Below, piece by piece: positions 1 through 59,929 of a DNA stretch of 64,000 nt. Position numbers and translations under genes: made by a program. The notes beneath the pieces are model-generated. The model was not told the DNA's origin, made no database searches, and saw only the letters and a list, made by a program, of their open reading frames with translations. Numbering within the stretch: position 1 is the first letter of the stretch; each line of letters starts with the position of its first letter. Source of the DNA: Sipunculus nudus. Its lineage: Eukaryota > Annelida > Sipuncula > Golfingiida > Sipunculidae. The stretch covers positions 2,308,019-2,372,018 of the forward strand of contig CM049306.1 of the NCBI GenBank assembly GCA_026874595.1. The letters run 5' to 3'.

Positions 1-1940
1 GCCCTCTGTTCAGGGTAACCACAGCATTCAGTACTTACACAGGCCCTCTGTTCAGGGTAAACACATCATTCAGTACTTACACAGGCCCTCTGTTCAGGGT
101 AAACACAGCATTCAGTTCTTACACAGGCCCTCTGTTCAGGGTAAACACAGCATTCAGTACTTACACAGGCCCTCTGTTCAGGGTAAACACAGCATTCAGT
201 ACTTACACAGGCCCTCAGTTCAGGGTAAACACAGCATTCAGTACTTTCACAGGCCCTCTCTTCAGGGTAAATACAGCATTCAGAGCTTACACAGGCCCTC
301 TGTTCAGGGTAAACACAGCGTTCAGTACTAACACAGGCCCTCTGTTCAGGGTAAACACAGCATTCAGTACTTACACAGGCCCTCTGTTCAGGGTAAACAC
401 AGCATTCAGTACTTACACAGGCCCTCTGTTCAGGGTAAACACAGCATTCAGTACTTACACAGGCCCTCTGTTCAGGGTAAACACAGCATTCAGTACTTAC
501 ACAGGCCCTCTGTTCAGGGTAAACACAGCATTCAGTACTTACACAGGCCCTCTGCTGGGGATGTACACAGATCACTAACAAAGGAACTTGGTTCTCATCC
601 TGGCATCCAGTTAACACAGCATTCAATTCTTACACAGGCCCTCTGTTCAGGGTAAACACAGCATTCAGTACTTACACAGGCCCTCTGCTGGGGATGTACA
701 CAGATCACTAACAAAGGAACTTGGTTCTCATCCTGGCATCCAGTAAACACAGCATTCAGTACTTACACAGGCCCTCTGTTCAGGGTAAACACAGCATTCA
801 GTACTTACACAGGCCCTCTGTTCAGGGTAAACACAGCATTCAGTACTTACACAGGCCCTCTGTTCAGGGAAACACAGCATTCAGTACTTACACAGGCCTG
901 CTGTTCAGGGTAAACACAGCATTCAATACTTACACAGGCCCTCTGTTCAGGGTAAACACAGCATTCAGTACTTACACAGGCCCTCTGCTGGGGATGTACA
1001 TAGATCACTAACAAAGGAACTTGGTTCTCATCCTGGCATCCAGTTAACACAGCATTCAGTTCTTACACAGGCCCTCTGTTCAGGGTAAACACAGCATTCA
1101 GTACTTACACAGGCCCTCTGCTGGGGATGTACACAGATCACTAACAAAGGAACTTGGTTCTCATCCTGGCATCCAGTAAACACAGCATTCAGTACTTACA
1201 CAGGCCCTCTGTTCAGGGTAAACACAGCATTCAGTACTTACACAGGCCCTCTGTTCAGGGTAAACACAGCATTCAGTACTTACACAGGCCCTCTGTTCAG
1301 GGAAACACAGCATTCAGTACTTACACAGGCCCTCTGTTCAGGGTAAACACAGCATTCAATACTTACACAGGCCCTCTGTTCAGGGTAAACACAGCATTCA
1401 GTACTTACACAGGCCCTCTGCTGGGGATGTACACAGATCACTAACAAAGGAACTTGGTTCTCATCCTGGCATCCAGTTAACACAGCATTCAGTTCTTACA
1501 CAGGCCCTCTGTTCAGGGTAAACACAGCATTCAGTACTTACACAGGCCCTCTGCTGGGGATGTACACAGATCACTAACAAAGGAACTTGGTTCTCATCCT
1601 GGCATCCAGTAAACACAGCATTCAGTACTTACACAGGCCCTCTGTTCAGGGTAAACACAGCATTCAGTACTTACACAGGCCCTCTGCTGGGGATGTACAC
1701 AGATCACTAACAAAGGAACTTGGTTCTCATCCTTGCATCCAGTTAACACAGCATTCAGTTCTTACACAGGCCCTCTGTTCAGGGTAAACACAGCATTCAG
1801 TACTTACACAGGCCCTCTGCTGGGGATGTACACAGATCACTAACAAAGGAACTTGGTTCTCATCCTGGCATCCAGTTAACACAGCATTCAGTTCTTACAC
1901 AGGCCCTCTGTTCAGGGTTAACACAGCATTCAGTACTTAC
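1..1940 (-). repeat. 42-bp minisatellite carrying the exon 9 splice donor, with partial exon 9 copies
   Basis: The basic unit is 42 bp and runs off the left edge. Read on the minus strand, each unit contains GCCTGT|GTAAGTACTG, the same junction that ends exon 9 at 1941. Eight units are longer and also carry about 50 bp of exon 9 (near 554, 688, 988, 1121, 1421, 1554, 1687 and 1820). From 688 to 1554 these are arranged in a 433-bp higher-order period (300 + 133 bp). The 42-bp unit is a multiple of three, which explains the long open frames across it. Confidence 0.93.
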
Positions 1941-2012
1941 ACAGGCCCTCTGCTGGGGATGTACACAGATCACTAACAAAGGAACTTGGTTCTCATCCTG
2001 GCTCTCACTGTT
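1941..2012 (-). CDS. TIR-protein exon 9 (24 codons)
   Basis: The exon has the acceptor AAATGCAG before 2012 and the donor GTAAGTACTG at 1940-1931, and is phase 0 on both sides. It encodes 24 residues (403-426), ending VICVHPQQRAC. The hydrophobic run PLLVICVHP followed by QQR resembles the first beta-strand of a second TIR-like or Rossmann-type fold, but the rest lies outside the window. Its donor is the edge copy of a tandem array of equivalent donors, so the exon end could slide in steps of 42 bp without losing frame. The identification depends on phase agreement with exon 8 and on the duplicated exon copies to its left. Confidence 0.75.
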
Positions 2013-5000
2013 CTGCATTTCTAAGACACTTCTTGCACTTGGTTTCTTAAACAATTAATGAGATAGATTGATGTAAGAAAAATCAATTAAAATAAAAATG
2101 TTGGTTCTCAAGATCATCTACAATCTTTTAAAATCAGTTGTTTAAATATTTGTGAGAATAATAAAATCAACAACTCTGGAGACAATAGGGTGAAGTAAAC
2201 TCAGCTGGTGGACAAATGATTCAATTTTGAGGTAAATACATACAGAAATTTAACAAAAACTACATGTAATTTGACCATGGTCCTCTGAGGGCCCTGCAGT
2301 GAAAAATGGTGTTTTTAGATGTTTAGATGGGCTGAGGCAGCCATCTGAGGGCCCTGCAGTGAAAAATGGTGTTTTTAGATGTTTAGATGGGCTGAGGCAG
2401 CCATATTGGAATTCCGACAGATCTGTAACAATAGGTCTGGAGCCCTCGTATTTACCAATCATCCCTGTGAATTTGGGAAAGCTGAAGTATGTTGTTGTTG
2501 AGTTATTGCGCACAAAAGAAAATTAGGGATTGGGCTGTGGCTGTAATATTGGAATTCTGACAGGTCTGTTATTCAATATGTCTGGAGCACTTGTATGTAC
2601 CAATCATCCCTGTGAATTCTGGGAAGCTGAAGTATTAAGTTATTCAGGAATTGTAATTGAAAGAAATCAGTGATTGGGCTGTGGTGGCCATATTGGAATT
2701 CTGACAGGTCTGTAATTCAATATGTCTGGAGCACTTGTATGTACCAATCATACCTGTGAATTTGGGAAAGCTGAAGTATGTTGTTGCTGAGTTATTGCGC
2801 GTGAAAGAAAGTGTCATTGACAGAAGGATAGAAGTACAGAAGGATGGAAGGACGGACTGACACGGTGATCTTAAAAGGGCATGGCTTGTCAAGTGGGGCC
2901 CTAATAAAAGCAGATATATACAAAGGTGATCATTGCCTATCTCTGTGTGCATTTGAAGTTTTAAACTAGATGTATCGGAACGACACGAATGCCCCCGCCT
3001 GGGGCAAATTAGAAACATTTGTTAATTATTGTAAAATTTTTTAAGTTCAGGAAGTGTTGTATGTTCAAAAGTTGGTCAACAAGGGCAAAATGCAAACTCA
3101 ATCTGTAAAGGGTCATTATCAAGCAACACACCAAAAATCAGGCCAGTATCTGCAGGCACTGTGAAAAAAAGTCCATATATGTGCATTTTTCATGAAAATT
3201 CTGTCTTTCATGAAATTTTCTATGTTCAGGATCTGTCATATGGTGAAAAATAGGTTAACTGGGACGAAACGTGAACTCGATCTGTAAGTGGTCATTATGC
3301 GCCCACAGACCAAACATTAGGCTAGTATCTGTAAGCATTGCATTGTGAAACTAGAATATTAGCAAAAGTTGATAATCATTTATAAATTTAAATTGGAGAG
3401 GTATATACCATGTTTCATAACAATCCACCAAATGCTTCCTGAGAAATAAGCTCCTAAGTTTTTTTCTATACAAAGCTCTGTGACCTTGAAAAGAAGGTCA
3501 AGATCACCCATCTTTGAACTTGACCAAGATTTTGTAAATATAATGCAATAGCACTGAAGAAATGAAGTTCCTGTGTTGAATACCTTTGGAGATATCCTGC
3601 ACAAAAGGCCAAAATTGAAAAAATCCGATAAAATTTCATTAAAAAATCAGAATTTGCAGGCGGTGCCACCAAAATTGTGCAGCACATACAGACCATCAGT
3701 CCCAATGATCATAGTAAGTTTTGTGAAAATCCACACAATGGTTCCTGAGATATAAACTTCCGAGTGTTTTTCTATAATCAGCTCTAAAATGCAGAAAAAC
3801 GGGTCAAGGTCACCCATCTTTGAACTTGACCGAGATTTTATCGATATACATCTTCACTGATGAAATAAAATTCCAACGGTGAATCCTTTTAGAGATATCC
3901 CACTCACAAGGTAAAAGTTAACAGAAGTGGAACGGACGGACGGACAGACACCGGACAGACAGATGGACAGACAGACAGCTTGGGTGACGACAATAGCCCA
4001 TCAGCCCAAGAGCTGAGGGCTAAAAACGGCTGTACATGTGTATTTGTCATGAAAATTTCTATTTTTCATGACTTTTTCTAAGTTTAGGAGCAGTAAAACG
4101 GTCAAAAGTAGGTCAACTTGGAAGAAACGTGAACTCGATCTGTAACTGGTCATTATCTGCCCACACACCAAAAATCAGGCCAATATCTGCAGGCATTGCA
4201 AAAAAAAGTCCGTACATGTGTATTTGTCATGAAAATTTCTATTATTCATGAAATTTTCGAAGTTTAGGAGCCTTAAATCAGTCAAAAGTAGGTCAACCGG
4301 GACGAAACGCGAACTCGATCTGTAACTGGTCATTATCTGCCCACACACCAAAAATCAGGCCAATATCTGCAGGCATTGCGAAAAAAAGTCCGTACATGTG
4401 TATTTGTCATGAAAATTTCTATTTTTCATGAAATTTTCTAAGTTTAGGAGCCGTAAAACGGTCAAAATAGGTCAACCGGGATGAAACGCGAACTCGATCT
4501 GTAACTGGTCATTATCTGCCCACACACCAAAAATCAGGCCAATATCTGCAGGCACTGCGAAAAAAAGTCTGTACAACTGTTTGATTTCGGAAGGACGGAA
4601 TGACGGACATGGGTAAAACTATTTGCCCCGGCCACTTTGTGGCAGGGGCATAAAAAAACTTGTCTGAAGTGGTTCTACTTTAACTGAGGTGAGGGCTTAC
4701 CCTTTTTAGGATTCCTGTCATCATTCTCTGGTGCTGCTTCAAGTCACTTTGATGTAAGCACTCCGCTATACTGTTGGCCGCCTGTTTGACACACGGAGTG
4801 TCCCAGAAGTGGATGTCTATTGCTCTCCATGCCTCGTCCCTGTCATACTCTGTAAAATAGCATTCAGCACATAAAATCAAACATTCAACACATAAAAATC
4901 AAACATTCAGAACCGGCTTCTGTGGCTCAGGGGTAGAGCGCAGGGCTCAAAGCCAGGAGATCGTGAGTTTGAATCTCAGCCGAGCCGGTGAGATTTTTCA

Positions 5001-29000: not shown

Positions 29001-32000
29001 AATAGTGGGGGGGGGGGGGATGATTATATTGACCATCCCCCCTTGCCTAAAAGTCGGGGGGGGGGGGGGGGGGTTATATACCCCCACCCCGCTATAAAGG
29101 AATGGTCCTTTGTCATATGGTTTATAAAAAAAAATAATGTGGTGATTCTTATTACCTCCATAATGAAATGGACTAGTGATATGTCTTTGCCCTAACCCTC
29201 TACAAATGTTCAGAAAAACATTTTTCACCTGTCACGCTTTTTCAGGAGGGTGTTATCCACGCTGAACCCCATTTCCATTATATCGCATGTTAAGGAACTG
29301 TACTCTGTCAAAAGGAAGTAAAGATTTTAAATTCAAGCACGGCACACATGTCCACATGAATATTTTAATAGGGAGCACTTTTCCATTGAGTGGACACAGA
29401 GAGCTGAGACCCTTTACACGATCAACGTTTTATAGTTTTAAAAGTATGTTGATTTTTATACATTCAGAAGTATCTTTCCATGATAACCATGGTTTTAATA
29501 ATTTGGCCTATTCATGGATTGTTTGAAAAATGTTTTTTCAAAAGGAAGCCTGGGGGGATTGCACACACTACTAAGGGTCCTAAATCTCTTGGGGACTTTG
29601 AAAACCCCTGCCAGAATCTACTTATCAGTCCTTCGTTCATACTAGCACGTTTCATGAAAAAACATTGTCATGGTTCAGAAATACGGTTTCACCAGGCGAG
29701 TGGCAGAACAACTGCATACGAATGGGCGGCTTCAACTCGGGAACAAAGGAATAGTCCCTTATAATTATTCCTTTGTGATTATGGCACTTAAGAAAAAAAT
29801 ATATTTTGGTGATTCTGATTACCTCCAAAAATGTAATGGATTACAGATGCAGTTTTACTCTACCCCTCTACAAATTTTCAGCAAAATCTGTATATTACAT
29901 TTTTACATAAATTTGCTGAAAGACAATGGATCAAACAAAGGCTGAAGTTGTTTCTTTGCTAAACGCTTTCATCAAAATATATAAACTTGCTCTCTTTTTA
30001 TCTGGGAGAGTTGTCAATTTTGCATCAGACCTGCTCATTCCATGAAAATTTACAGTACTTAAACCAAAAATTTGATACTGTTGGAACATATTTTTCTGGG
30101 CCTGTCTTTTTCATAATGGCAGCTATATGTTTTGCGTACAAGAGACTTCAACCACATATGCATGTGTATACAAATAACGAATGTGTCTGTTAAAATGCCT
30201 TAGACTAAATACCTTCAACTGACTAAACTGAATAAACATCGTGTTTCACGATGTTTCCTGAACTTAAACTAATACAAAGCATCTTTCATATAATTTCATG
30301 GTAGAATGCTTCTTTATACAATCGCTATATCTACGATATTTCCCAAGCAATGAAGCTGTCGGAGCTATGTTGTTTATCGGAAAAAAAACTTCTCACTTAA
30401 AAATTGGTACACCCTGTATATGCCTCACATCTCTTTCCAAAATTGATTTTTTTGTGTGATTTTTGGAATAGAATAATTTTTCTTTCTATGTTGATATTTT
30501 GGGGGGAGGGTGTTCCTGCAGAATTCTAGCAGAAGTAATCTTGATATCATATAAGTGAAAAACATGAAAAAAGTTCCTGCAAAAACCTTAGTATTGAAAT
30601 ATGCATTTAGTTCCTATCAGCTCATTACAAAAATTTGCATCAGATAGAGCCGTGGATTTTCCATGGGTGCAGCTAGTACAATTATTAATTGCCACTGTAC
30701 TCTTACAACGTTTATAGCACGTCTGTAAAAATTCATCACCTACCTTCTACCTTTTCATATGAGTAAATTCCAGGATTTTTCCAAGAATGTTGGGAGCCAG
30801 ATTTTATAAGCCCCCTTTTTATTCATTTTTTCTGTACCTTTTATAGGTTGGGAGTAAACTGACACTGAAAATCTGAAAAATTTATGCTTTTTGATCCCTG
30901 TGGCCTTGAAAAATGGGTCAAGGTCTATGAAACTGAGTAAAAGTAATTGACTACAATTAACTAAATAACACACCTACACCAAATATGCTTACCAAACTAC
31001 TTACCTGTTTATCCATCTCCCTCCTGAAAACATTTACTGGTATATCCAGCTCAGCAAACACAAACCCCAGCTTAGCGCCCTCTACTGTCTGTATGCCAAT
31101 CCGTGGCTTGTCTGCAATGACAAAGGATGAGCCAAGTTAATATGTAGTTACAGGTGTACACTATTTTCCCTACATTTCTAAGTGATAACACACTGTTTAT
31201 ACCACACCAGATAACAGCAGACAATGTGTATTAACGCAAGCATTAATGATTAACCACTTGGGTTATGCAACTGAAAAACTGAACAAATTTAAAAAACAAT
31301 TAAAATTCATAACACAATGGCAGCACTTTTACCATTGTTAGTAACATCTTCAAGAATTGACTGGCCTTATATACGACTGATGAGCTGAAACTCAAGATGA
31401 TTTTACCTTGATATAAAATTAGAACTTGTAGGTCTAACTGATCTGAGTTTTGGCTTGCAAATGGCCAGCCCAACAAAATAGTCACAATCATAAGCCAATG
31501 TTGATGGACAGATGTTAAGTTTTTAACACTGCATGCCAATTGATAACATATAAACAATCTTAATTATGTATTACATATTACCAGTTTGGCAATAACAATA
31601 ATTTTTCACTTCATTTTTTAGTAATTATATGCATTGTGTACACTAATAAAATCAAAGTCTTGTTCTATACTTAAAATCTTGCCAGGAATTAAACATTTAA
31701 TGCATCACTTGTACACCTACAACTGTACACCTTTCAACATTCACATTCTGAAACCTCAAAGATTCAAATCTTATCACATCTTTACTAAGTCTGGATGAAC
31801 TTGGCTACCTCCTGAGGGTCCTGGTGAACTTGGCTAACTCCTGAGGGTCCTGGTGAACTTGGCTAACTCCTGGGGGTCCTGATGAACTTGGCTAACTCCT
31901 GAGGGTCCTGGTGAACTTGGATAACTCCTGAGGGTCCTGGTGAACTTGGCTAACTCCTGAGGGTCCTGGTGAACTTGGCTAACTCCTGAGAGTCCTGGTG

Positions 32001-35000
32001 AACTTGGCTATAACTCCTGAGGGTCCTGGTGAACTTGGATAACTCCTGGGGGTCCTGATGAACTTGGCTAACTCCTGAGGGTCCTGGTGAACGAGGCTAG
32101 CTCCTGAGAGTCCTGGTGAACTTGGCTATAACTCCTGAGGGTCCTGGTGAACTTGGCTAACTCCTGAGAGTCCTGGTGAACTTGGCTATAACTCCTGAGG
32201 GTCCTGGTGAACTTGGCTAATTCCTGAGGGTCCTGGTGAACTTTGCTAACTCCTGAGGGTCCTGGTGAACTTGGCTAACTCCTGGGGGTCCTGATGAATT
32301 TGGCTGACTCCTGAGGGTCCTGGTGAACTTGGCTAACTCCTTGGGGTCCTGATGAATTTTGCTGACTCCTGAGGGTCCTGGTGAACTTGGCTAACTCCTG
32401 GGTGTCCTGATGAATTTGGCTAACTCCTGAGGGTCCTGGTGAACTTGGCTAACTCCTGGGGGTCCTGATGAATTTGGCTGACTCCTGAGGGTCCTGGTGA
32501 ACTTGGCTAACTCCTGGGGGTCCTGATGAATTTGGCTGACTTCTGAGGGTCCTGGTGAACTTGGCTAACTCCTGGGGGTCTTGATAAACTTGGTTAACTC
32601 CTGAGAGTCCTGGTGAACTTGGATAACTCCTGAGGGTCCTGGTGAATTGGGCTAACTCCTGAGGGTCCTGGTGAACTTGGCTAACTCCTGAGAGTCCTGG
32701 TAAACTTGGCTATAACTCCTGAGGGTCCTGGTGAACTTGGCTAACTCCTGGGGGTCCTGATGAACTTGGCTAACTCCTAAGGGTCCTGGTGAACGAGGCT
32801 AACTCCTGAGAGTCCTGGTCAACTTGGCTATAACTCCTGAGGGTCCTGGTGAACTTGGCTAACTCCTTGGGGTCCTGATGAACTTGGCTAACTCCTGAGG
32901 GTCCTGGTGAATGAGGCTAACTCCTGAGGGTCCTGGTGAACTTGGCTAACTACTGAGAGTCCTGGTGAACTTGGCTATAACTCCTGAGGGTCCTGGTGAA
33001 CTTGGCTATAACTCCTGAGGGTCCTGGTGAACTTGGCTATAACTCCTGGGGGTCCTGATGAATTTGGCTAACTCCTGAGGGTCCTGGTGAACTTGGCTAA
33101 CTCCTGAGGGTCCTGGTGAACTTGGCTAACTCCTGAGGGTCCTGGTGAACTTGGCTAACTCCTAAAGGTCCTGATGAACTTGGCTTACTTCTGAGGGTCC
33201 TGGTGAACTTGGCTAACTCCTGAGGGTCCTGCACCTTAACATGGGGCTTTATGATATCCTGTAAGACACTTACCATAACATTTGACGATCTGGACGACAT
33301 TCCTATCATCGATCACCTGACTGACCTTTACTCGAGTCTCCTGAGGTTTCTGTACAGTCCACCTACAACAGACAAAAATGTCAAACATTCACAGGATATT
33401 CTATTCATCAAACACATTTGAAACTATTCTGAAATTTGTCAGTAACAAACTAGACTTAACATAGCTTCATGATCATGGCAGACTCAAACTAGATATGTGT
33501 AGTAGTTGTACAACTACCTGGATACCCCTGTCAGGAACAATACCCCCCCCCCCCCCACATATGGTTTTTTATGGTGTGCCCAATGCAACACTTCCGTATC
33601 ACACCTGTGTCATCCCTGTTCAAGTGTAGTGACTGAGTCAGCCCTGTGTTATCCCAGTTCATGTGTAGCCATTGAATACCCCTGTGTCATTCCTCTTCAT
33701 GTGAGTCAGGGATGAGTCAGTCACTACACGACTGACCCCTGTGTCATCCCTGTTCATGTGTAGTGACTGACTCACCCCTGTGTCATCCCTGTTCATGTGT
33801 AGTGACTGACTCACCCCTGTGTCATCCCTGTTAGTGTGTAATGACTGACTGACCCCTGTGTGATCCCTGTTCATGTGTAGTGACTGACTCACCCCTGTGT
33901 CACCCCTGTTAGTGTGTAGTGACTGACTCACCCCTGTGTCATCCCTGTTCATGTGTTGTGACTGAATCACCCCTGTGTCATCCTTGTTCATGTGTAGTGA
34001 CTGACTGACCCCTGTGTCATCCCTGTTCACGTGTAGTGACTGACTCACCCCTGTGTCATCCTTGTTCATGTGTAGTGACCAACTCACCCCTGTGTCATCC
34101 CTGTTCATGTGTAGTGACTGACTCACTCCTGTGTCATCCCAGTTCATGTGTAGTGACTGACTCACTGCTGTGTCATCCCTGTAAGTGTGTAGTGACTGAC
34201 TCAACCCTGTGTCATCCCTGTTAGTCTGTAATGACTGACTGACCCCTGTGTGATCCCTGTTAGTGTGTAGTGACTGACTGACCCCTGTGTCATCCCTGTT
34301 AGTGTGTAGTGACTGACTCACCCCTGTGTCATCCCTGTTCATGTGTAGTGACTGACTCACCCCTGTGTCATCCCTGTTAGTGTGTAGTGACTGACTCACC
34401 CCTGTGTCACCCCTGTTAGTGTGTAGTGACTGACTCACCCCTGTGTCACCCCTGTTAGTGTGTAGCGACTGACTCACCCCTGTGTCACCCCTGTTAGTGT
34501 GTAGTGACTGACTGACCCCTGTGTCATCCCTGTTCATGTGAAGTGACTGACTGACCCCTGTGTGATCCCTGTTCATGTGTAGTGACTGACTCACCCCTGT
34601 GTCACCCCTGTTAGTGTGTAGTGACTGACTCACCCCTGTGTCATCCCTGTTCATGTGTAGTGACTGAATCACCCCTGTGTCATCCTTGTTCATGTGTAGT
34701 GACTGACTGACCCCTGTGTCATCCCTGTTCACGTGTAGTGACTGACTCACCCCTGTGTCATCCTTGTTCATGTGTAGTGACCAACTCACCCCTGTGTCAT
34801 CCAAGTTCATGTGTAGTGACTGACTCACTGCTGTGTCATCCCTGTAAGTGTGTAGTGACTGACTCAACCCTGTGTCATCCCTGTTAGTCTGTAATGACTG
34901 ACTGACCCCTGTGTGATCCCTGTAAGTGTGTAGTGACTGACTGACCCCTGTGTCATCCCTGTTAGTGTGTAGTGACTGACTGACCCCTGTGTCATCCCTG

Positions 35001-38000
35001 TTCATGTGTAGTGACTGACTCACCCCTGTGTCATCCCTGTTAGTGTGTAGTGACTGACTCACCCCTGTGTCACCCCTGTTAGTGTGTAGCGACTGACTCA
35101 CCCCTGTGTCACCCCTGTTAGTGTGTAGTGACTGACTGACCCCTGTGTCATCCTTGTTCATGAGTAGTGACTGACTCACCCCTGTGTCATCCCTGTTCCT
35201 GTGTAGTGACTGACTCACCCCTGTGTCATCCCTGTTCATGTGTAGTGCCTAACTCACCCCTGTGTCATCCCAGTTCATGTGTAGTGACTGACTCACCACT
35301 GTGTCATCCCTGTTCATGTGTAGTGACTGACTCTCAGTTCATGTGTAGTGACTGACTCACTGCTGTGTCATCCCTGTAAGTGTGTAGTGACTGACTCAAC
35401 CCTGTGTCATCCCTGTTAGTCTGTAATGACTGACTGACCCCTGTGTGATCCCTGTTAGTGTGTAGTGACTCACTGACCCCTGTGTCATCCCTGTTAGGGT
35501 GTAGTGACTGACTCACCCCTGTGTCATCCCTGTTCATGTGTAGTGAATGACTCACCCCTGTGTCATCCCTGTTAGTGTGTAGTGACTGACTCACCCCTGT
35601 GTCACCCCTGTTAGTGTGTAGCGACTGACTCACCCCTGTGTCACCCCTGTTAGTGTGTAGTGACTGACTGACCCCTGTGTCATCCTTGTTCATGTGTAGT
35701 GACTGACTCACCCCTGTGTCATCCCTGTTCATGTGTAGTGACTGACTCACCGCCTAACTCACCCCTGTGTCATCCCAGTTCATGTGTAGTGACTGACTCA
35801 CCGCTGTGTCATCCCTGTTCATGTGTAGTGACTGACTCACCCCTGTGTCATCCCTGTTCATGTGGAGTGACTGACTCACTCCTGTGTCATCCCTGTTCAT
35901 GTGTAGTGACTGACTCACCCCTGTGTCATCCCTGTTCATGTGTAGTGACTGACTAACCCCTTTATCATCCTTGTTCATGTGTAGTGACAGACTCACCCCT
36001 GTGTCATCCATGTTAGTGTGTAGTGACTGACTCACCCCTGTGTCACCCCTGTTAGTCTGTAATGACTGACTGACCCCTGTGTCATCCTTGTTCCTGTGTA
36101 GTGACTGACTCACCCCTGTGTCATCCCTGTTAGTGTGTAGTGACTGACTTACCCCTGTGTCATCCCTGTATCATCCCTGTTAGTGTGTATTGACTGTCTA
36201 ACCCCTGTGTCATCCCTATTCATGTGTAGTGACCTTGTGTCATCCCTTTTCATGTGTAGTGACTGACTCATCCCTGTGTCATCACTGTTCATGTGTAGTG
36301 ACTGACTCATCCCTGTGTCATCCTTGTTCATGTGTATTGACTGACTCACCCCTGTGTCATCCTTGTTCATGTGTAGTGACTGACTGACCCCTGTGTCATC
36401 CCTGTTAGTGTGTAGTGACTGACTGACCCCTGTGTCATCCCTGTTCATGTATAGTGACTGACTGACCCCTGTATCATCCCTGTCCATGTGTAGTGACTGA
36501 CTCACCCCTGTGTCACCCCTGTTAGTGTGTAGTGACTGACTCACCCCTGTGTCATCCCTGTTCATGTGTAGTGACTGAATCACCCCTGTGTCATCCTTGT
36601 TCATGTGTAGTGACTGACTGACCCCTGTGTCATCCTTGTTCATGTGTAGTGACTGACTCACCCCTGTGTCATCTCAGTTCATGTGTAGTGACTGACTCAC
36701 TGCTGTGTCATCCCTGTAAGTGTGTAGTGACTGACTCAACCCTGTGTCATCCCTGTTAGTCTGTAATGACTGACTGACCCCTGTGTGATCCCTGTTAGTG
36801 TGTAGTGACTGACTGACCCCTGTGTCATCCCTGTTAGGGTGTAGTGACTGACTCACCGCTGTGTCATCCCTGTTCATGTGTAGTGACTGACTCACCCCTG
36901 TGTCATCCCTGTTCATGTGTAGTGACTGACTCACTCCTGTGTCATCCCTGTTCATGTGTAGTGACTGACTCACCCCTGTGTCATCCCTGTTCATGTGTAG
37001 TGACTGACTAACCCCTTTATCATCCTTGTTCATGTGTAGTGACCGACTCACCCCTGTGTCATCCCTGTTAGTGTGTAGTGACTGACTCACCCCTGTGTCA
37101 CCCCTGTTAGTCTGTAATGACTGACTGACCCCTGTGTCATCCTTGTTCCTGTGTAGTGACTGACTCACCCCTGTGTCATCCCTGTTAGTGTGTAGTGACT
37201 GACCTACCCCTGTGTCATCCCTGTTCATGTGTACTGACTGACTCACCCCTGTGTCGTCCTTGTTCATGTGCAGTGACTAACTCACCCCTGTGTCATCCCT
37301 ATTTATGTGTAGTGACTGACTCACCCCTGTGTCATCCCTGTTAGTGTGTAGTGACTGACTCACCCCTGTGTCATCCTTGTTCATGTGTAGTGACTGACTC
37401 ACCCCTGTGTCATCCCTGTTCATGTGTAGTGACTGACTCACCCCTGTGTCATCCTTGTTCATGTGTAGTGACTGACTCACCCCTGTGTCATCCCTGTTAG
37501 TGTGTAGTGACTGACTGACCCCTGTGTCATCCTTGTCCATGTGTAGTGACTGACTCACCCTGTTTCATCCCTGTTAGTGTGTAGTGACAGACTCATCCCC
37601 TGTATCATCCCTGTATCATCCCTGTTAGTGTGTATTGACTTTCTAACCCTTGTGTCATCCCTATTCATGTGTAGTGACCTTGTGTCATCCCTTTTCATGT
37701 GTAGTGACTGACTCATCCCTGTGTCATCACTGTTCATGTGTAGTGACTGACTCATCCCTGTGTCATCCTTGTTCATGTGTAGTGACTGACTGACCCCTGT
37801 GTCATCCCTGTTCATGTGTAGTGACTGACTGACCCCTGTGTCATCCCTGTTAGTGTGTAGTGACTGACTGACCCCTGTGTCATCCCTGTTCATGTATAGT
37901 GACTGACTGACCCCTGTATCATCCCTGTTTGCGTGTAGTGACTGACTCACCCCTATATCATCCCTGTTAGTGTGTATTGACTGTCTAACCCCAGTGTCAT

Positions 38001-41000
38001 CCCTGTTAGTGTGTAGTGACCTTGTGTCATCCCTTTTCACGTGTAGTGACTGACTCACCCCTGTGTCATCCTTGTTCATGTGTAGTGACTGACTAACCTC
38101 TGTGTCATCCCTGTTAGTGTGTAGTGACTGACTGACCCCTGTATCATCCCTGTTAGTGTGTATTGACTGTCTAACCCCAGTGTCATCCCTGTTAGTGTGT
38201 AGTGACCCTGTGTCATCCCTGTTCATGTGTAGTGACTGACTCACCCCTGGGTCATCCCTGTTAGTGTGTAGTGACTGACTCACCCCTGTGTCATCCCTGT
38301 TAGTGTGTAGTGACTGACTAACCTCTGTGTCATCCCTGTTAGTGTGTATTGACTAACCCCAGTGTCATCCCTGTTAGTGTGTAGTGACCCTGTGTCATCC
38401 CTTTTCACATGTAGTGACTGACTCACCCCTGGGTCATCCCTGTTCATGTGTAGTGACTGACTCACCCCTGTGTCATCCCTGTTCATGTGTAGTGACTGAC
38501 TCACCCCTGTGTCATTCCTGTTAGTGTGTAGTGACTGACTAACCCATGTTTTATCCCTGTTCATGTGTAGTGACTGACTCACCCCTGTGTCATCCCTGTT
38601 CATGTGTAGTGACTGACTCACCCCTGTGTCATCCTTGTTCATGTGTAGTGACTGACCAACCCATGTTTTATCCCTGTTCATGTGTATTGACTGACTCACC
38701 CCTGTGTCATTCCTGCTCGTGTGTAGTGACTGACTCACCCCTGTGTCATTCCTGTTAGTGTGTAGTGACTGACTAACCCATGTTTTATCCCTGTTCATGT
38801 GAAATGACTGACTCACCCCTGTGTCATCCTTGTTCATGTGTAGTGACTGACTCACCCCTGTGTCATCCCTGTTCATGTATAGTGACTGACTCACCCCTGT
38901 GTCATCCTTGTTCATGTGTAGTGACTGACTCACCCCTGTCTCATCCCTGTTCATGTGAAGTGACTGACTAACCCCTGTGTCATCCCTTGTTCATGTGTAG
39001 TGACCAACTCACCCCTGTGTCATCCCTGTTCATGTATAGTGACTGACTCACCCCTGTGTCATCCCAGTTCATGTGTAGTGACTGACTCACTGCTGTGTCA
39101 TCCCTGTTCATGTGTAGTGACTGACTGACCCCTGTGTCATCCCTGTTCATGTATAGTGACTGACTGACCCCTGTATCATCCCTGTTTGCGTGTAGTGACT
39201 GACTCACCCCTATATCATCCCTGTTAGTGTGTATTGACTGTCTAACCCCAGTGTCATCCCTGTTAGTGTGTAGTGACCTTGTGTCATCCCTTTTCACGTG
39301 TAGTGACTGACTCACCCCTGTGTCATCCTTGTTCATGTGTAGTGACTGACTAACCTCTGTGTCATCCCTGTTAGTGTGTAGTGACTGACTGACCCCTGTA
39401 TCATCCCTGTTAGTGTGTATTGACTGTCTAACCCCAGTGTCATCCCTGTTAGTGTGTAGTGACCCTGTGTCATCCCTGTTCATGTGTAGTGACTGACTCA
39501 CCCCTGGGTCATCCCTGTTAGTGTGTAGTGACTGACTCACCCCTGTGTCATCCCTGTTAGTGTGTAGTGACTGACTAACCTCTGTGTCATCCCTGTTAGT
39601 GTGTATTGACTAACCCCAGTGTCATCCCTGTTAGTGTGTAGTGACCCTGTGTCATCCCTTTTCACATGTAGTGACTGACTCACCCCTGGGTCATCCCTGT
39701 TCATGTGTAGTGACTGACTCACCCCTGTGTCATCCCTGTTCATGTGTAGTGACTGACTCACCCCTGTGTCATTCCTGTTAGTGTGTAGTGACTGACTAAC
39801 CCATGTTTTATCCCTGTTCATGTGTAGTGACTGACTCACCCCTGTGTCATCCCTGTTCATGTGTAGTGACTGACTCACCCCTGTGTCATCCTTGTTCATG
39901 TGTAGTGACTGACCAACCCATGTTTTATCCCTGTTCATGTGTATTGACTGACTCACCCCTGTGTCATTCCTGCTCGTGTGTAGTGACTGACTCACCCCTG
40001 TGTCATTCCTGTTAGTGTGTAGTGACTGACTAACCCATGTTTTATCCCTGTTCATGTGAAATGACTGACTCACCCCTGTGTCATCCTTGTTCATGTGTAG
40101 TGACTGACTCACCCCTGTGTCATCCCTGTTCATGTATAGTGACTGACTCACCCCTGTGTCATCCTTGTTCATGTGTAGTGACTGACTCACCCCTGTCTCA
40201 TCCCTGTTCATGTGAAGTGACTGACTAACCCCTGTGTCATCCCTTGTTCATGTGTAGTGACCAACTCACCCCTGTGTCATCCCTGTTCATGTATAGTGAC
40301 TGACTCACCCCTGTGTCATCCCAGTTCATGTGTAGTGACTGACTCACTGCTGTGTCATCCCTGTTCATGTGTAGTGACTGACTCAACCCTGTGTCATCCC
40401 TGTTCATGTGTAGTGACTGACTCACCCCTGTGTCATCCCTGTTAGTGTGTAGTGACTGACTCACCCCTGTGTCATCCTTGTTCATGTGTAGTGACTGACT
40501 CACCCCTGTGTCATTCCTGTTAGTGTGTAGTGACTGACTCACCCCTGTGTCATTCCTGTTAGTGTGTAGTGACTGACTAACCCATGTTTTATCCCTGTTC
40601 ATGTGAAGTGACTAACTCACCCCTGTGTCATCCCTGTTAGTGTGTAGTGACAGACTCACCCCTGTGTCATCCTTGTTCATGTGTAGTGACTGACTCACCC
40701 CTGTGTCATTCCTGTTAGTGTGTAGTGACTGACTCACCCCTGTGTCATCCTTGTTCATGTGTAGTGACTGACTCACCCCTGTGTCATCCCTGTTAGTGTG
40801 TAGTGACTGACTCACCCCTGTGTCATCCCTGTTCATGTGTAGTGACTGACTCACCCCTGTGTCATCTTTGTTCTTGTGTAGTGACTGACTCACCCCTGTG
40901 TCATCCTTGTTCATGTGTAGTGACTGACTCACCCCTGTGTCATCCCTGTTCATGTGTAGTGACTGACTCACCCCTGTGTCATCCTTGTTCATGTGTAGTG

Positions 41001-42712
41001 ACTGACTCACCCCTGTGTCATCCTTGTTCATGTGTAGTGACTGACTCACCCCTGTGTCATCCCTGTTAGTGTGTAGTAGCTGACTCACCCCTGTGTCATC
41101 CCTGTTCATGTGTAGTGACTTACTCACCCCTGTGTCATTCCTGTTAGTGTGTAGTGCCTGACTCACCCCTGTGTCATCCCTGTTAGTGTGTAGTGACTGA
41201 CTCACCCCTGTGTCATCCTTGTTCATGTGTAGTGACTGACTCACCCCTGTGTCATTCCTGTTAGTGTGTAGTGACTGACTCACCCCTGTGTCATCCTTGT
41301 TCATGTGTAGTGACTGACTCACCCCTGTGTCATCCCTGTTAGTGTGTAGTGACTGACTCACCCCTGTGTCATCCCTGTTCATGTGTAGTGACTGACTCAC
41401 CCCTGTGTCATCCTTGTTCATGTGTAGTGACTGACTCATCCCTGTGTCATCCTTGTTCATGTGTAGTGACTGACTCACCCCTGTGTCATCCCTGTTCATG
41501 TGTTGTGACTGACTGACCCCTGTGTCATCCCTGTTAGTGTGTAGTGACTGACTCACCCCTGTGTCATCCTTGTTCATGTGTAGTGACTGACTCACCCCTG
41601 TGTCATTCCTGTTAGTGTGTAGTGACTGACTCACCCCTGTGTCATCCTTGTTCATGTGTAGTGACTGACTCACCCCTGTGTCATCCCTGTTAGTGTGTAG
41701 TGACTGACTCACCCCTGTGTCATCCTTGTTCATGTGTAGTGACTGACTCACCCCTGTGTCATCCTTGTTCATGTGTAGTGACTGACTCACCCCTGTGTCA
41801 TCCCTGTTCATGTGTAGTGACTGACTCACCCCTGTGTCATCCTTGTTCATGTGTAGTGACTGACTCACCCCTGTGTCATCCTTGTTCATGTGTAGTGACT
41901 GACTCACCCCTGTGTCATCCCTGTTCATGTGTAGTGACTGACTGACCCCTTTGTCATCCCTGTTAGTGTGTAGTGACTGACTCACCCCTGTGTCATCCTT
42001 GTTCATGTGTAGTGACTGACTCACCCCTGTGTCATTCCTGTTAGTGTGTAGTGACTGACTCACCCCTGTGTCATCCTTGTTCATGTGTAGTGACTGACTC
42101 ACCCCTGTGTCATTCCTGTTAGTGTGTAGTGACTGACTCACCCCTGTGTCATCCTTGTTCATGTGTAGTGACTGACTAACCCATGTTTTATCCCTGTTCA
42201 TGTGAAGTGACTGACTAACCCCTGTGTCATCCCTGTTCATGTGTAGTGACTGACTCACCCCTGTGTCATCCCAGTTAGTGTGTAGTGACTGGCTCATCCC
42301 TGTGTCATCCTTGTTCATGTGTAGTGACTGACTCACCCCTGTGTCATCCCTGTTCGTGTGTAGTGACTGACTCACCCCTTTGTCATCCCTGTTCATGTGT
42401 AGTGACTGACTCACCCCTGTGTCATCCTTGTTCATGTGTAGTGACTGACCAACCCATGTTTTATCCCTGTTCATGTGTAGTGACTGACTCACCCCTGTGA
42501 TGTGCAAAACAAGAATTCTGATGGCAGTGTAGCCAACTGCTGAGTCAAGGTCTCTCTTAGTTTCTGTAGGTTCTGACAGGTTGAGCTGACTGTCACTACT
42601 CCTAGATGGAGGGAGGATGGGGCATACCCTGCCTGTGTCTCGCTAGTCAGACTGATGGCCAGCAGCTTGTCATCTTCCAACTCTTCAGAAATGGTCTCCA
42701 TGGTATCTAAAT
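1941..42712 (-). CDS. Gene span: multi-exon TIR-domain protein, 3' end outside window
   Basis: Nine exons read right to left: 42712-42493, 33362-33274, 31111-31005, 26124-25919, 22674-22491, 21071-20946, 20575-20440, 4849-4701, 2012-1941. Every visible intron begins GT and ends AG. The phases at the eight junctions (2,1,0,2,0,0,1,0) all fit, and the joined frame stays open for about 426 codons from ATG 42701. Residues 30-99 and 100-190 are two related modules sharing G-W-x-V-x3-Q-E (70-78 and 149-157). Residues 234 to about 385 form a TIR domain of the TIR_2 type, with the ILISY first strand and a WTNRE motif. Residues 403-426 start another segment. TIR proteins act in innate immune or cell-death signalling, and some cleave NAD+; which applies here is not known. 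I do not recognise a named orthologue. No stop codon or polyA site is in the window. Confidence 0.85.
2013..2963. repeat. Intron 8, left part: short direct repeats
   Basis: A 60-bp segment is present twice in exact tandem (2284-2343 and 2344-2403), ending GGGCTGAGGCAGCCAT. It is followed by three diverged copies of a block of about 143 bp starting near 2408, 2552 and 2693 (GGAATTC..ACAG..CTGT, then TGTGAATTTGGGAAAGCTG). No coding signal is seen. Confidence 0.7.
2964..4651. mobile_element. Palindrome-ended interspersed element, copy 1
   Basis: The left end holds ATGCCCCCGCCTGGGGCAAA and the right end holds its inverted counterpart, TTTGCCCCGG...GGCAGGGGCAT. The terminal inverted repeats are therefore themselves hairpins. 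The interior has a block with a (GGAC/AGAC)n stretch at 3925-3980 and three tandem units of about 180 bp (4031, 4211, 4391). No transposase is visible, so it is probably non-autonomous. It is homologous along its length to 5532-7590. Confidence 0.7.
4701..4849 (-). CDS. TIR-protein exon 8 (C-terminal part of the TIR domain)
   Basis: The exon has the acceptor TATTTTACAG before 4849 and the donor GTAAGC at 4700. It enters in phase 1 and leaves in phase 0. With the last base of exon 7 it completes Glu353 and encodes residues 353-402, including IDIHFWDTP and a following helix VKQAANSIAECL. In the TIR_2 family a W-D pair followed by a helix containing IA is usual near the domain end, so this exon closes the TIR fold. 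A basic, Gln-rich tail (HQSDLKQHQRMMTGILKR) follows. The exon sits between two copies of the same interspersed element and next to a minisatellite abutting its acceptor. Confidence 0.85.
4850..5450 (-). repeat. About 22-bp minisatellite abutting the exon 8 acceptor, interrupted by a SINE
   Basis: Units such as CATAAAAATCAAACATTCAG occur from about 4860 to 4912 and again from 5305 to about 5450. On the minus strand the unit matches the intron end immediately upstream of the exon 8 acceptor (TGATTTTATGTGCTGAATG then CTATTTTACAG). The array seems to be a copy of the pyrimidine-tract region rather than of the exon. It is split by a SINE at 4913-5304. Confidence 0.8.
4913..5304 (+). mobile_element. 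tRNA-derived SINE
   Basis: The head resembles a tRNA gene: A-box-like TGGCTCAGGGGTAGAGC, then GATCGTGAGTTTGAATCTC as B box, closed by GAGCC pairing with the 5' GGCTTC region. A body of about 310 bp follows, ending in a run of As (5290-5304). The sequence AAACATTCAG lies on both sides, consistent with a target-site duplication, although the host array repeats this word anyway. The internal promoter is probably for RNA polymerase III; activity is unknown. Confidence 0.82.
5532..7590. mobile_element. Palindrome-ended interspersed element, copy 2
   Basis: It has the same ends as 2964-4651 (CGTATGCCCCCGCCTGGGGC at left, CCACTTTGTGGCGGGGGCAT at right) and the same internal order. It carries five of the tandem units of about 180 bp (6601, 6781, 6961, 7141, 7321) instead of three. 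The (GGAC/AGAC)n stretch is near 6490-6545. No open frame of transposase type is seen. Confidence 0.7.
7591..8034. other. Intron 7 spacer, nothing recognised
   Basis: AT-rich sequence with a short repeated phrase (ACTATGACA..GTGGAGACATCTGCAG near 7930 and 7995). No exon with acceptable splice sites or homology was recognised. Confidence 0.5.
8035..10508 (+). mobile_element. Long interspersed repeat family, copy 1
   Basis: It begins GGGACCCATGGGTCACGGCG and ends GACTTATAGTCAGCTGAGCT followed by As. A second head-like start (GGACCCATGGGTCACAAC) occurs at 8639. The interior from about 8700 aligns by eye with 11640-12850 and 51830-53040, including a G-run (9646-9657) and a flanking CAGGGCAGAGG..AAGC block. 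A (GGAC)n-type stretch precedes the right end (10430-10460). No protein is encoded. Confidence 0.65.
10509..10999. repeat. Fragment of a related (GGAC/AGAC)n element
   Basis: It contains TGATGGACGGACAGACATAC and neighbouring AGAC repeats at 10684-10722, the type of stretch seen near the ends of the other elements here. The rest is AT-rich and shows nothing further. Confidence 0.4.
11000..13827 (+). mobile_element. Long interspersed repeat family, copy 2
   Basis: It starts GGGACCCATGGGTCACGGCG and ends at TATAGTCAGCTGAGCTAAAA. It is near-identical by eye to 51180-54398 over most of its length and shares a long G-run (12667-12686). An extended GGAC/AGAC-type stretch lies at 13713-13790. The right end abuts the exon-7-derived minisatellite directly. 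Confidence 0.72.
13829..20439 (-). repeat. 6.6-kb minisatellite seeded from the exon 7 splice donor
   Basis: About 100 units of two main lengths (about 58 and 78 bp) occupy this stretch. On the minus strand many units read CTCCACAACAG..GAAGGAAG|GTAAAAGTAA. The true exon 7 end is CTCCACAACAGATCCAGGAA followed by G|GTAAAGTAA. The array is therefore a copy of the last roughly 25 exon bases plus the donor and start of intron. One subfamily has TATCTTCC in place of TACCTTCC, so the GT of that copy is lost; most others keep it. Sub-types alternate in blocks, suggesting several expansion rounds. Confidence 0.93.
20440..20575 (-). CDS. TIR-protein exon 7 (central TIR)
   Basis: The acceptor is CATTGAAAG before 20575 and the donor GTAAAGTAA starts at 20439. 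Phase is 0 in and 1 out. It encodes residues 308-352 plus one base. The sequence runs from VKLADVLDKFILPVSF through a WPP motif (327-329) to LAIQFATTQFIPW (332-344). The WPP and the strand LAIQFATTQFI are what I recognise as TIR_2-type landmarks. The polypyrimidine tract of its acceptor is weak. Its donor is the edge copy of the large array on its left. Confidence 0.88.
20576..20945 (-). other. Intron 6 (short, no array)
   Basis: A 370-bp intron between exons 6 and 7, from GTAAACTGAGGG at 20945 to the AG before 20575. It is AT-rich. It is one of two visible introns with no recognisable amplified splice junction. Confidence 0.8.
20946..21071 (-). CDS. TIR-protein exon 6 (TIR core, contains WTNRE)
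   Basis: The acceptor TCATTTTCAG precedes 21071 and the donor GTAAAC follows 20946. It is phase 0 on both sides, 42 codons, residues 266-307. It begins DVHEIKTGVDWQDALNDAV, the TIR BB-loop and alpha-B region, then CEVFIPLVTPRYGETQWTNRE. The W303-x3-E307 spacing matches the motif in which enzymatic TIR domains such as that of SARM1 carry their catalytic glutamate. NADase activity is inference only. Glu307 is the last codon of the exon. Confidence 0.9.
21190..21640. repeat. 26-27-bp minisatellite in intron 5
   Basis: About 16 imperfect units of ACATCTACACAATGTGACTC with variable CTGTGAAAA spacers. On the minus strand each unit holds TTTTTCACAG and TTGTGTAG|ATG, which are acceptor-like. It lies 120 bp upstream of the exon 6 acceptor (TCATTTTCAG|GATGTACAT). 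The resemblance to that junction is only partial, so its origin is uncertain. Confidence 0.75.
21700..22460. repeat. Degenerate GTGACT-rich short tandem region
   Basis: Irregularly spaced phrases such as TAGTTTATGTGAGCC, GTGTGACCTTACAGTTAGTG and GTGACTCCATAGTT recur roughly every 28-30 bp. This looks like an old, decayed array just downstream of the exon 5 donor. Similarity to the donor itself (GTTAGT) is limited to the short GGTTAGTG or CAGTTAGTG words. Confidence 0.45.
22491..22674 (-). CDS. TIR-protein exon 5 (linker and first TIR strand)
   Basis: The acceptor ATTCTTGTAG precedes 22674 and the donor GTTAGTAATC follows 22491. Phase is 2 in and 0 out, residues 204-265. It encodes a basic, Ser-rich linker (MAKQITFRSSKDQERHGPAS) and then KQILISYVRAEA (234-245), the first TIR strand. 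A helix follows (LSLKRELMDLAF), leading straight into exon 6. The acceptor and first roughly 25 exon bases are what the neighbouring 51-bp array repeats. Confidence 0.88.
22675..23659 (-). repeat. 51-bp minisatellite seeded from the exon 5 splice acceptor
   Basis: About 20 units. On the minus strand each reads TTCTTGTAG|ATATAGCATG then GCCAAGCAGATCACCTGAATG, where the first part reproduces the exon 5 junction (TTCTTGTAG|ATATAGCATG). Each copy is a plausible acceptor followed by about 25 bp of exon 5. In the exon 5 reading frame every copy ends in TGA just after ATCACC, so use of an upstream copy without a second splice would truncate the protein. Confidence 0.93.
23740..25918 (-). repeat. 30-bp minisatellite seeded from the exon 4 splice donor
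   Basis: About 72 units of 30 bp. On the minus strand each reads ACTAGTCCTGTACCACAAAG then GTATGTACCA, identical to the exon 4 end and donor. Part of the array (about 24011-24790) has a 150-bp higher-order period of five units. At the right end the exon 4 reading frame runs on through the units as the decapeptide TSPVPQRYVP with no stop from 26124 to 25528. Successive donors are 30 bp apart and in one phase. Confidence 0.95.
25919..26124 (-). CDS. TIR-protein exon 4 (second GW-x-V module)
   Basis: The acceptor ATATTTACAG precedes 26124 and the first donor copy GTATGTACC starts at 25918. Phase is 0 in and 2 out, residues 136-203 plus two bases. It begins VTVAGTYVFKDRNGWPVSCS and continues with QEDQLTAMDLM and SSVLISI. 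G149-W150-P-V-x3-Q156-E157 matches residues 70-78 encoded at the exon 1/2 junction, so the two modules look like internal duplicates. The tail EWSPVPTSPVPQR is low in complexity, and its last ten residues are one unit of the neighbouring array. The true exon end cannot be fixed without transcripts. Confidence 0.87.
26125..26620 (-). repeat. 23-bp minisatellite seeded from the exon 4 splice acceptor
   Basis: From 26125 to about 26350 there are about ten near-perfect 23-bp units that read ATGTATATTTACAG|GTGACT on the minus strand, the exact exon 4 acceptor and first exon bases. From 26350 to 26620 the units are longer and mixed with AAAATACCACCAACAGTC, which is also copied from the acceptor region. 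Exon 4 is thus flanked on both sides by arrays of its own junctions. Confidence 0.92.
26622..28060. mobile_element. Modular interspersed element with GGTGGCxCCACC motifs
   Basis: It starts with a diverged head, GTGACCCAGGGGTCATGACG. A module with GGTGGGGCCACCAGT (26896) and a (GACA/GACG)n stretch (27176-27200) follow. After 27260 there are about three modules of about 270 bp, each with a GGTGGCACCACC-like palindrome (27530, 27657, 27786, 27936). The same modules appear at 50048-51179 and 54399-55795. No protein is encoded. Confidence 0.6.
28061..31004. repeat. Intron 3 filler with diverged direct repeats and G-runs
   Basis: Segments near 28600-28860 and 29280-29560 are diverged copies of each other. 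Both contain AAAAGGAAGT..AAG, a GTTGATTTTTATACAT phrase and ATCTTTCCATGATAACCAT. Between them are G-runs at about 28896-28910, 29006-29019 and 29057-29074. From 29600 to 31004 nothing recognisable is seen. No exon with phase-consistent splice sites was found or needed here. Confidence 0.5.
31005..31111 (-). CDS. TIR-protein exon 3
   Basis: The acceptor TCATTGCAG precedes 31111 and the strong donor GTAAGTAG follows 31005. Phase is 1 in and 0 out. It completes Asp100 and encodes residues 101-135, KPRIGIQTVEGAKLGFVFAE then LDIPVNVFRREMDKQ. This is the first half of the second module, aligned with the LGVVTV..LQKLRETLTQQL part of exon 1. The beta-strand, helix, F/GW pattern suggests a small alpha/beta (possibly ubiquitin-like) fold, which is inference. 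It has no amplified splice junction on either side. Confidence 0.87.
31112..31785. other. Intron 2, left part: nothing recognised
   Basis: AT-rich single-copy-looking sequence without exon or mobile-element signature. Confidence 0.5.
31786..33230. repeat. 29-bp minisatellite in intron 2
   Basis: About 49 units of CTCCTGAGGGTCCTGGTGAA plus CTTGGCTAA, with common variants GGGGGTCCTGATGAA and an AT insertion (GGCTATAACTCC). The array begins 43 bp downstream of the exon 2 donor. The unit has no canonical donor. The unit nearest the exon (GTGCAGGACCCTCAGGAG on the minus strand) matches 15 of 18 bases of exon 2 itself (GTACAGAAACCTCAGGAG), hinting at an exon-derived seed. Confidence 0.9.
33274..33362 (-). 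CDS. TIR-protein exon 2
   Basis: The acceptor CTGTTGTAG precedes 33362 and the donor GTAAGTG follows 33274. Phase is 2 in and 1 out. It completes Gly70 and encodes residues 71-99, starting WTVQKPQETRVKVSQVIDD and ending VVQIVKCY. Together with the end of exon 1 it supplies the first G-W-x-V-x3-Q-E motif. Phase and module alignment with exon 4 support it strongly, despite the short length. Confidence 0.87.
33363..33589. other. Intron 1 end between the exon 2 acceptor and the large array
   Basis: Short unique stretch containing a C-run at 33542-33556. No feature otherwise. Confidence 0.5.
33590..42492 (-). repeat. 8.9-kb 39-bp minisatellite seeded from the exon 1 splice donor
   Basis: About 230 units of 39 bp. 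On the minus strand they read GATGACACAGG|GGTGAGTCAG, or GGG|GTGAGTCAG with the true junction, then TCACTACACATGAACAG. The exon 1 end is CACATCACAGG then GGTGAGTCAGTC. Each unit keeps a strong GTGAGT donor. The unit length is a multiple of three, so open frames of up to 631 codons (42507-40612) occur in a frame different from that of exon 1. A 1257-bp block is duplicated in tandem inside the array (38280-38954 equals 39537-40211 and beyond). Confidence 0.95.
42493..42712 (-). CDS. TIR-protein first visible exon with likely start codon
   Basis: The acceptor CTTTTGTAG precedes 42712 and the donor GTGAGTCAG starts at 42492. It leaves in phase 2. An ATG at 42701 lies in a favourable context (A at -3, G at +4: ATACCATGG) and opens METISEELEDDKLLAISL. 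If it is the start, the exon carries 11 bp of 5' UTR plus 69 codons. If not, the frame is also open upstream of the ATG within the exon, and a phase-1 exon would have to precede it. Residues 33-66, LGVVTV..LQKLRETLTQQLATLPSE, form the first half of module 1. Confidence 0.82.
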
Positions 42713-43660: not shown

Positions 43661-43800
43661 CAAACCATTTGGAGATAAACTTTCTTGAGAGTAAGCGACA
43701 ATTTTTCATACATATATACTTACAATTTTTGTCCAAACTGATTTAATACAATTTTGTTTTTTATTAAGTTCATTAATTAGGGGTTGTTACATGTCCTCAT

Positions 43801-56831: not shown

Positions 56832-57716
56832 CTTCTGATAATGTCAACCAGAACCTCAGAGACTGTCATATAGCATGGTGTGTCATTCATAAATTCAACC
56901 AGAACCTCAGAGACTGTCATATAGCATGGTGTGTCATTCATAAATTCAACCAGAACCTCAGAGACTGTCATATAGCATGGTGTGTCATTCATAAATTCAA
57001 CCAGAACCTCAGAGACTGTCATATAGCATGGTGTGTCATTCATAAATTCAACCAGAACCTCAGAGACTGTCATATAGCATGGTGTGTCATTCATAAATTC
57101 AACCAGAACCTCAGAGACTGTCATATAGCATGGTGTGTCATTCATAAATTCAACCAGAACCTCAGAGACTGTCATATAGCATGGTGTGTCATTCATAAAT
57201 TCAACCAGAACCTCAGAGACTGTCATTTAGCATGGTGTGTCATTCATAAATTCAACCAGAACCTCAGAGACTGTCATATAGCATGGTGTGTCATTCATAA
57301 ATTCAACCAGAACCTCAGAGACTGTCATATAGCATGGTGTGTCATTCATAAATTCCACCAGAACCTCAGAGACTGTCATATAGCATGGTGTGTCATTCAT
57401 AAATTCAACCAGAACCTCAGAAACTGTCATATAGCATGGTGTGTCATTCATAAATTCAACCAGAACCTCAGAGACTGTCATATAGCATGGTGTGTCATTC
57501 ATAAATTCAACCAGAACCTCAGAGACTGTCATATAGCATGGTGTGTCATTCATAAATTCAACCAGAACCTCAGAGACTGTCATATAGCATGGTGTGTCAT
57601 TCATAAATTCAACCAGAACCTCAGAGACTGTCATATAGCATGGTGTGTCATTCATAAATTCAACCAGAACCTCAGAGACTGTCATATAGCATGGTGTGTC
57701 ATTCATAAATTCCATT
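56832..57716. repeat. 51-bp minisatellite
   Basis: About 17 nearly identical units of AACCAGAACCTCAGAGACTG then TCATATAGCATGGTGTGTCA and TTCATAAATTC. The minus strand is open as a 17-residue repeat (MTVSEVLVEFMNDTPCY), apart from one unit at 57227 where TAT has become TAA. On the minus strand ATGACAG|TCTCTGAG|GTTC contains acceptor- and donor-like words. No flanking exon could be supported, so coding status is doubtful. Confidence 0.92.
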
Positions 57717-59880: not shown

Positions 59881-59929
59881 GGAGATCCAACTCATATAGT
59901 CCATGGGCTAGGAGCGGTCACCGTGCACC

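Follow-up and report, generated by a model that had tools for sequence, protein, structure and literature searches.

Minisatellites spanning splice junctions in the introns of a TIR-domain gene of Sipunculus nudus

How does a gene come to have introns filled with tandem copies of its own splice junctions, and which of the many copies of a junction is used in splicing? The question is raised by a stretch of 64,000 nucleotides from Sipunculus nudus (assembly GCA_026874595.1, contig CM049306.1, positions 2,308,019 to 2,372,018 of the forward strand, or G000:C1:2308019-2372018), which I will refer to as the window and whose numbering is used throughout. A first-pass annotation, made from the letters alone, had named six junctions of one gene (the donors of exons 1, 4, 7 and 9 and the acceptors of exons 4 and 5) where the unit of an adjacent array includes exon bases and the working splice site.

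The locus that bears the arrays is an immune-type gene with TIR domains, lying on the minus strand, as do all exons and arrays of the gene described here. Twelve coding exons were placed, nine in the window and three (exons 10 to 12) in flanking DNA (L001), and the phases agree at all 11 exon-exon boundaries. Exons 1 to 7 and exon 9 were assigned by means of open frames, splice sites and phase. Exon 1 (42493..42712) is the first coding exon found, with an ATG inside it, AG and GT at its edges and a phase that fits exon 2 (33274..33362). There follow exon 3 (31005..31111), exon 4 (25919..26124) and four exons that also match the TIR_2 profile: exon 5 (22491..22674), where the first TIR domain begins, exons 6 (20946..21071) and 7 (20440..20575), which continue it, and exon 9 (1941..2045), where a second TIR-like region begins. 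Exon 8 (4701..4849) was assigned by phase and by a hexamer model trained on the control exons described below. Read from 4849 to 4701, it is the best of four phase-compatible candidates (24.2 vs. -7.1 for the runner-up) and restores all phases. Another acceptor considered for exon 8, beside a 60-bp repeat at 2284-2404, was rejected, since neither of its copies has a phase-compatible donor. Among the other 11 exons, the hexamer model ranks the assigned frame best in eight and gives it a positive score in ten; in exons 2, 4 and 12 a different frame has a slight lead, and the score of exon 9 is negative (-7.8).

With every array treated as intron, the 565 residues read so far contain two TIR_2 stretches (whole-protein E = 1.1e-19), the best of which covers positions 1-109 of the 122 in the profile, the TIR sequence running over contiguous exons that are in phase. 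The TIR part of exons 5-7 also weakly matches SARM1 (best E = 0.00075). Neither the C-terminal end nor a 5' untranslated exon was found in the window and the fetched flanks. Upstream of exon 1 lies a 47-bp array (43800-45775; 42 copies, 98% matches) whose unit contains a donor-like CAG/GTATGA on the strand of the gene, and this array could be part of a 5' untranslated exon. Other TIR_2 genes are numerous in the genome, with clusters of matches at G000:C12:21.78-22.06 Mb and elsewhere, many of them in long open frames of 500-1160 codons. A search of the genome with exons 1-7 found the gene itself, in seven matches, and otherwise a single weak match on contig C4, and thus no close paralogue. In the C4 relative arrays are few (0.9 and 1.9% of two stretches) and exons 6 and 7 are matched in one continuous run; it is too distant to be of use in comparing junctions.

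The recurrence of exon edges was assessed with a probe of 25 exon bases and 12 intron bases from each of 24 junctions, aligned to the adjacent 600 bases of intron. At eight junctions the edge recurs in its own intron, with scores of 19 to 37, as against 7-11 at the remaining 16 and no more than 13 with reversed edges. Both types of boundary are affected. The five donors are those of exons 1 (score 19), 4 (37), 7 (27), 9 (37) and 12 (25), and the three acceptors those of exons 4 (27), 5 (35) and 10 (25). The six junctions named at the outset are therefore real cases, and the continuation of the gene beyond the window adds two more, the exon 10 acceptor (unit of 41 bp) and the exon 12 donor (42 bp). 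When only the exon part of the probe is considered, the exon 1 donor drops to background (8) and the other seven score 15-25; it is the weakest case, having only 7 exon bases in common with its array. The exon 11 donor (34 bp) is probably a ninth case, outside the eight counted: it scores 11 nearby and 23 against the whole intron, where the maximum of 300 shuffles was 15, and its copies are separated from exon 11 by sequence that looks by eye like a reverse transcriptase. In a cross-comparison run over 22 junctions, in which the exon 10 acceptor was represented by only about 200 bases, just four of the 462 comparisons between different junctions reached 25, and these I take to be exons 6 and 7 lying within each other's flanks.

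The arrays themselves were delimited by TRF (score of at least 50, period of at least 15). The largest, 226 copies of a 39-bp unit (33730..42499), runs from the exon 1 donor. Exon 4 is flanked on both sides, by a 23/68-bp array at its acceptor (26117..26620), which reaches 8 bp into the exon, and by 73 copies of a 30-bp unit at its donor (23746..25944), which reach 26 bp into it and match the probe at 37 of 37 bases. At the exon 5 acceptor 20 copies of a 51-bp unit (22649..23659) extend 26 bp into the exon, and at the exon 7 donor a 58/78-bp array (13826..20462) extends 23 bp into the exon. The array of the exon 9 donor, with units of 42, 126 and 133 bp and again a match of 37 of 37, occupies 1..2002 and continues past the start of the window to about position -4608. 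Two further arrays are not derived from junctions: one of 29 bp in intron 2 (31791..33231; exon 2 donor 8, exon 3 acceptor 10) and one of 28 bp in intron 5 (21249..21644; exon 5 donor 8, exon 6 acceptor 10). The case at exon 8 had been called no more than adjacent to the acceptor, and so it is: a 22-bp array (4853..4910, with more copies at 5294-5440) adjoins the acceptor and lacks the exon edge (score 8). A tRNA-like stretch at 4911-5290, by eye resembling a SINE, seems to have split that array.

The arrays had been described as starting exactly at an exon edge. According to TRF, which takes no account of exons, they end instead within them, by 7, 8, 19, 23, 26, 26 and 45 bp in the joined sequence and by 62 bp at exon 9 in the run on the window. 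On the other side they may take up nearly the entire intron: TRF arrays make up 96.0 and 97.3% of introns 1 and 4, respectively, and the whole (100%) of intron 9, in which the donor array and the acceptor array meet. They occupy 66.7, 22.0, 41.2 and 8.5% of introns 2, 3, 5 and 11, respectively, and introns 6 and 10 have none at these thresholds. Unit sizes range from 23 to 78 bp, including all those given in the first-pass annotation (23, 30, 39, 42, 51 and 58/78 bp), to which TRF adds higher-order units of 68, 126 and 133 bp; longer periods, up to 433 bp, are multiples. It is exceedingly unlikely that the arrays are an artefact of assembly, with repeats collapsed or inflated, since the copies differ among themselves (within the window's junction arrays the matches amount to 78-98%) and the exon bases held in common do not depend on the number of copies.

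Comparison of the units with one another indicates that each array arose independently, as had been supposed: the units are mutually unrelated, the closest pairs (best 8 of 45) being equalled or exceeded by at least 3 of 100 shuffles. The same comparison bears on the idea that these introns are newly gained, through tandem duplication of stretches of exon that contain AG and GT, as in the model of Rogers (1989) and the case of the potato RdRp gene. Duplications that cross a boundary are able to create introns, according to the potato report (PMC4974935), and the likeness extends to the mechanism, tandem duplication with splice signals, which in potato crosses an intron-exon boundary. An intron made in this way would carry the same segment at both its ends, however, and in introns 4 and 9 the unit of the donor array is unlike that of the acceptor array, which counts against it. 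In the intron-gain cases, moreover, a new intron arises, whereas in the TIR gene the copies lie in introns that already existed and the additional sites are apparently idle. I consider new introns very unlikely here.

How unusual the gene is may be judged from junctions elsewhere in the same genome. The control set consists of 140 exons with flanks of 650 bases, hand-picked from matches to four families, mostly from stop-free rows: 40 of 63 for CCT, 60 of 121 for kinesin, 20 of 75 for myosin and 20 of 95 for P450. All nine matches to the sugar transporter family (PF00083) and many of those to P450 lie in long open frames and are unusable as intron controls. From the 280 edges 253 were kept, after removal of eight that are likely gene ends and 19 with no splice site scoring above -1. 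The calls are computational, made without RNA, and some windows overlap; miscalls would depress the control rate, and 8 of the first 120 control exons contain in-frame stops. A score of at least 16 is reached by six of the 253 control junctions (two in CCT, three in kinesin, one in myosin and none of 34 in P450), with 0.36 predicted from cross-locus pairs and 0 obtained with reversed edges. A looser run, with the best of three candidate sites chosen for each edge, gave 10 of 239 and was judged too permissive; with one site per edge, before P450 was added, the figure was 7 of 238, including L120D, with a donor score of -3.2, which the later cut on site score removed. Set against the eight of 24 in the TIR gene, the final control figure gives a Fisher p of 2.0e-6, to be read with the caution that junctions of one gene are not independent, and upholds the earlier impression that so many cases in one gene are unusual. 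Five of the control cases are acceptors and one is a donor (of 120 donors), in contrast to the five donors and three acceptors of the TIR gene. The clearest is the acceptor of a kinesin exon (L084, G000:C12:42581439-42582933), spanned by about 22 copies of a 31-bp unit. Since about 2% of control junctions also carry copies, the TIR gene is a hotspot and not the sole case. The assembly also contains nine bacterial GroEL genes of the same score, on contigs C61, C62, C66, C72, C73, C75, C89 and C99. The best of 80 listed relatives of the C73 gene share 64-70% with it, which suggests that the assembly includes a symbiont or contaminant.

In a gene rich in arrays, some might fall on junctions by chance. 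Array cover is in fact high in this region. It reaches 26.9% in the part of the window upstream of exon 1, 15.0% in the 10 kb after that, and 8.4 and 7.4% in two stretches downstream, as compared to 3.9% of the 183 kb of control flank. The upstream part of the window includes two homogeneous arrays, at 48069-49240 (45 bp, 96%) and 56844-57712 (51 bp, 99%), and minus-strand open frames at 58716-59891 that look by eye like a LINE reverse transcriptase. The repeat-rich neighbourhood alone does not account for the excess at junctions. Seven of the 24 TRF arrays in the gene span a junction (exon 12 is not counted as spanned by TRF). At least seven did so in a fraction of 0.00025 of 20000 trials in which all arrays were rotated jointly, near-zero shifts possibly being included, and in none of 5000 trials in which arrays were placed independently, covering at most 62 bp of exon. 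A model of random duplication, with the arrays in the introns collapsed, predicts 1.08 (P = 5.6e-5), on the assumption of uniform duplication and with likely transposon repeats among the 24 arrays; the placement run was done without exon 8.

The difference between seven and 1.08 is not explained by array density alone, and a cause specific to junctions may therefore be missing. The junctions of this gene might be preferred sites of duplication, owing to R-loops or some other structure at exon edges, or arrays that span them might be kept by selection, random duplication being in either event insufficient. I regard this as possible, though doubtful. The placement statistics speak for it, but they come from one gene only. 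In the controls, TRF at the same thresholds finds 42 arrays (3.9% of flank), of which three span a junction vs. 2.0 expected, which fits chance placement and gives no sign of a preference, bearing in mind that the two expectations derive from different simple models; at a score of 40 and a period of 10 there are 65 arrays (4.7% of flank), five of which touch an exon, two of these lying inside exons. On these samples the enrichment test proposed with the first annotation thus has a mixed outcome, with an excess in the TIR gene and none apparent in the controls. Furthermore, conservation within the unit does not consistently favour the splice motif: of six arrays, two keep the motif better than the remaining bases, three about equally well and one, the array of intron 4, worse (0.83 vs. 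0.95 for the remaining unit).

Which copy, then, is spliced? Splicing at a farther copy would in most cases destroy the reading frame. The farther copies that can be used in frame without a stop number 0 of 214, 13 of 55, 0 of 58, 1 of 121 and 0 of 2 at the donors of exons 1, 4, 7, 9 and 12, and 0 of 17, 0 of 16 and 0 of 2 at the acceptors of exons 4, 5 and 10 (a test that predates the placement of exon 8 and covers 600 bases past exon 12). At six of the eight junctions every farther copy leads to a stop or a frame shift, so the exon-adjacent copy should be the working splice site. It had been suggested that arrays can grow without harm because each unit carries its own splice site. The sequence does not establish this: at those six junctions the extra sites are unusable, and what makes the arrays tolerable must be that splicing stays with the exon-adjacent copy.

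The exceptions suggest that the arrays may be partly coding, farther donors being used and adding tandem peptides to the protein as a linker of variable length. In intron 4 there are 13 farther donors whose use would add stop-free units of 10 residues in frame, so that some copies may be translated, and 13 copies agree with the true donor at all of 37 bases. As a reading of the arrays in general it is improbable, given that six of the junctions offer no usable farther copy and exon 9 only the one. The TIR score says little either way: with one exon 9 unit added it is 24.7 bits, vs. 23.7, neither value reaching the cut-off of 28, and the part of the protein that gives the match is situated past that unit.

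The farther copies are not clearly weaker as sites. Copies that equal or exceed the true donor in score make up 129 of the 214 in intron 1, 20 of the 55 in intron 4, 44 of the 58 that follow exon 7 and 91 of the 121 that follow exon 9, and 118 copies in intron 1 are identical to the true donor over a 13-mer. The choice must therefore be aided by position, order of transcription or exon enhancers. In older in vitro work, when two identical 5' sites compete, the one nearer the 3' site is said to win as a rule. The coding frame of the TIR gene demands the opposite. Exon enhancers are a candidate, since a human study (PMC5585400) describes how a protein bound just upstream can alter which of two neighbouring 5' sites is chosen.

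The arrays have a precedent, to which the first annotation had correctly pointed. The 'mirage' minisatellites of amphioxus have the same architecture in Adh3, the globins BflGb6 and BflGb9, troponin C and PGBD5, and RNA data reportedly indicate that Adh3 and the globins are spliced regularly (PMC3087553 and PMC3902484). As in mirages, the unit spans the boundary between exon and intron, here at a third of the junctions probed, and donors and acceptors are affected alike. The mirage unit, roughly 10-160 bp in those reports, accommodates the units found here. Mirages are further described there as leaving mRNA splicing undisturbed and as unstable in length between alleles or in the soma, whereas the TIR gene is known from the sequence of a single assembly. 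The scale also differs: in those descriptions the arrays of a lancelet globin or PGBD5 gene number one or two, with 2-7 copies, and the TIR gene has eight or nine, of up to 226 copies, with introns 4 and 9 almost or wholly array. In human genes of segmental duplications with internal tandem repeats, expansion of minisatellites is likewise reported to alter gene structure (PMC2812944). A literature search limited to open-licence papers found none on minisatellites at splice sites of bivalve introns. The kind of array is thus already known from lancelets, and its scale here is extreme.

It is probable, in my estimation, that the arrays are junction-spanning minisatellites of the mirage kind, with the exon-adjacent copy in use and the farther copies removed as intron. 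At each junction a short tandem duplication with one end inside the exon would have copied the exon edge and its splice site, and unequal crossing-over or slippage would then have multiplied the unit; this course of events I infer from the arrays as they now stand. Copies would accumulate on the intron side only, since the exon side is constrained by the reading frame, and the spliceosome would keep to the exon-adjacent copy, the others being spliced out with the intron. I propose that cases are many in this gene because it lies in a minisatellite-rich neighbourhood and has some introns that contain little other sequence. A bolder reading, that the introns of this lineage owe much of their growth to copies of their own junctions, made by a junction-favouring process, and that the spliceosome bypasses at least 100 identical sites, position alone deciding, seems to me rather unlikely. 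As it stands, the gene is a natural experiment on the choice of splice sites, and it shows a route by which introns can reach kilobases with the reading frame intact.
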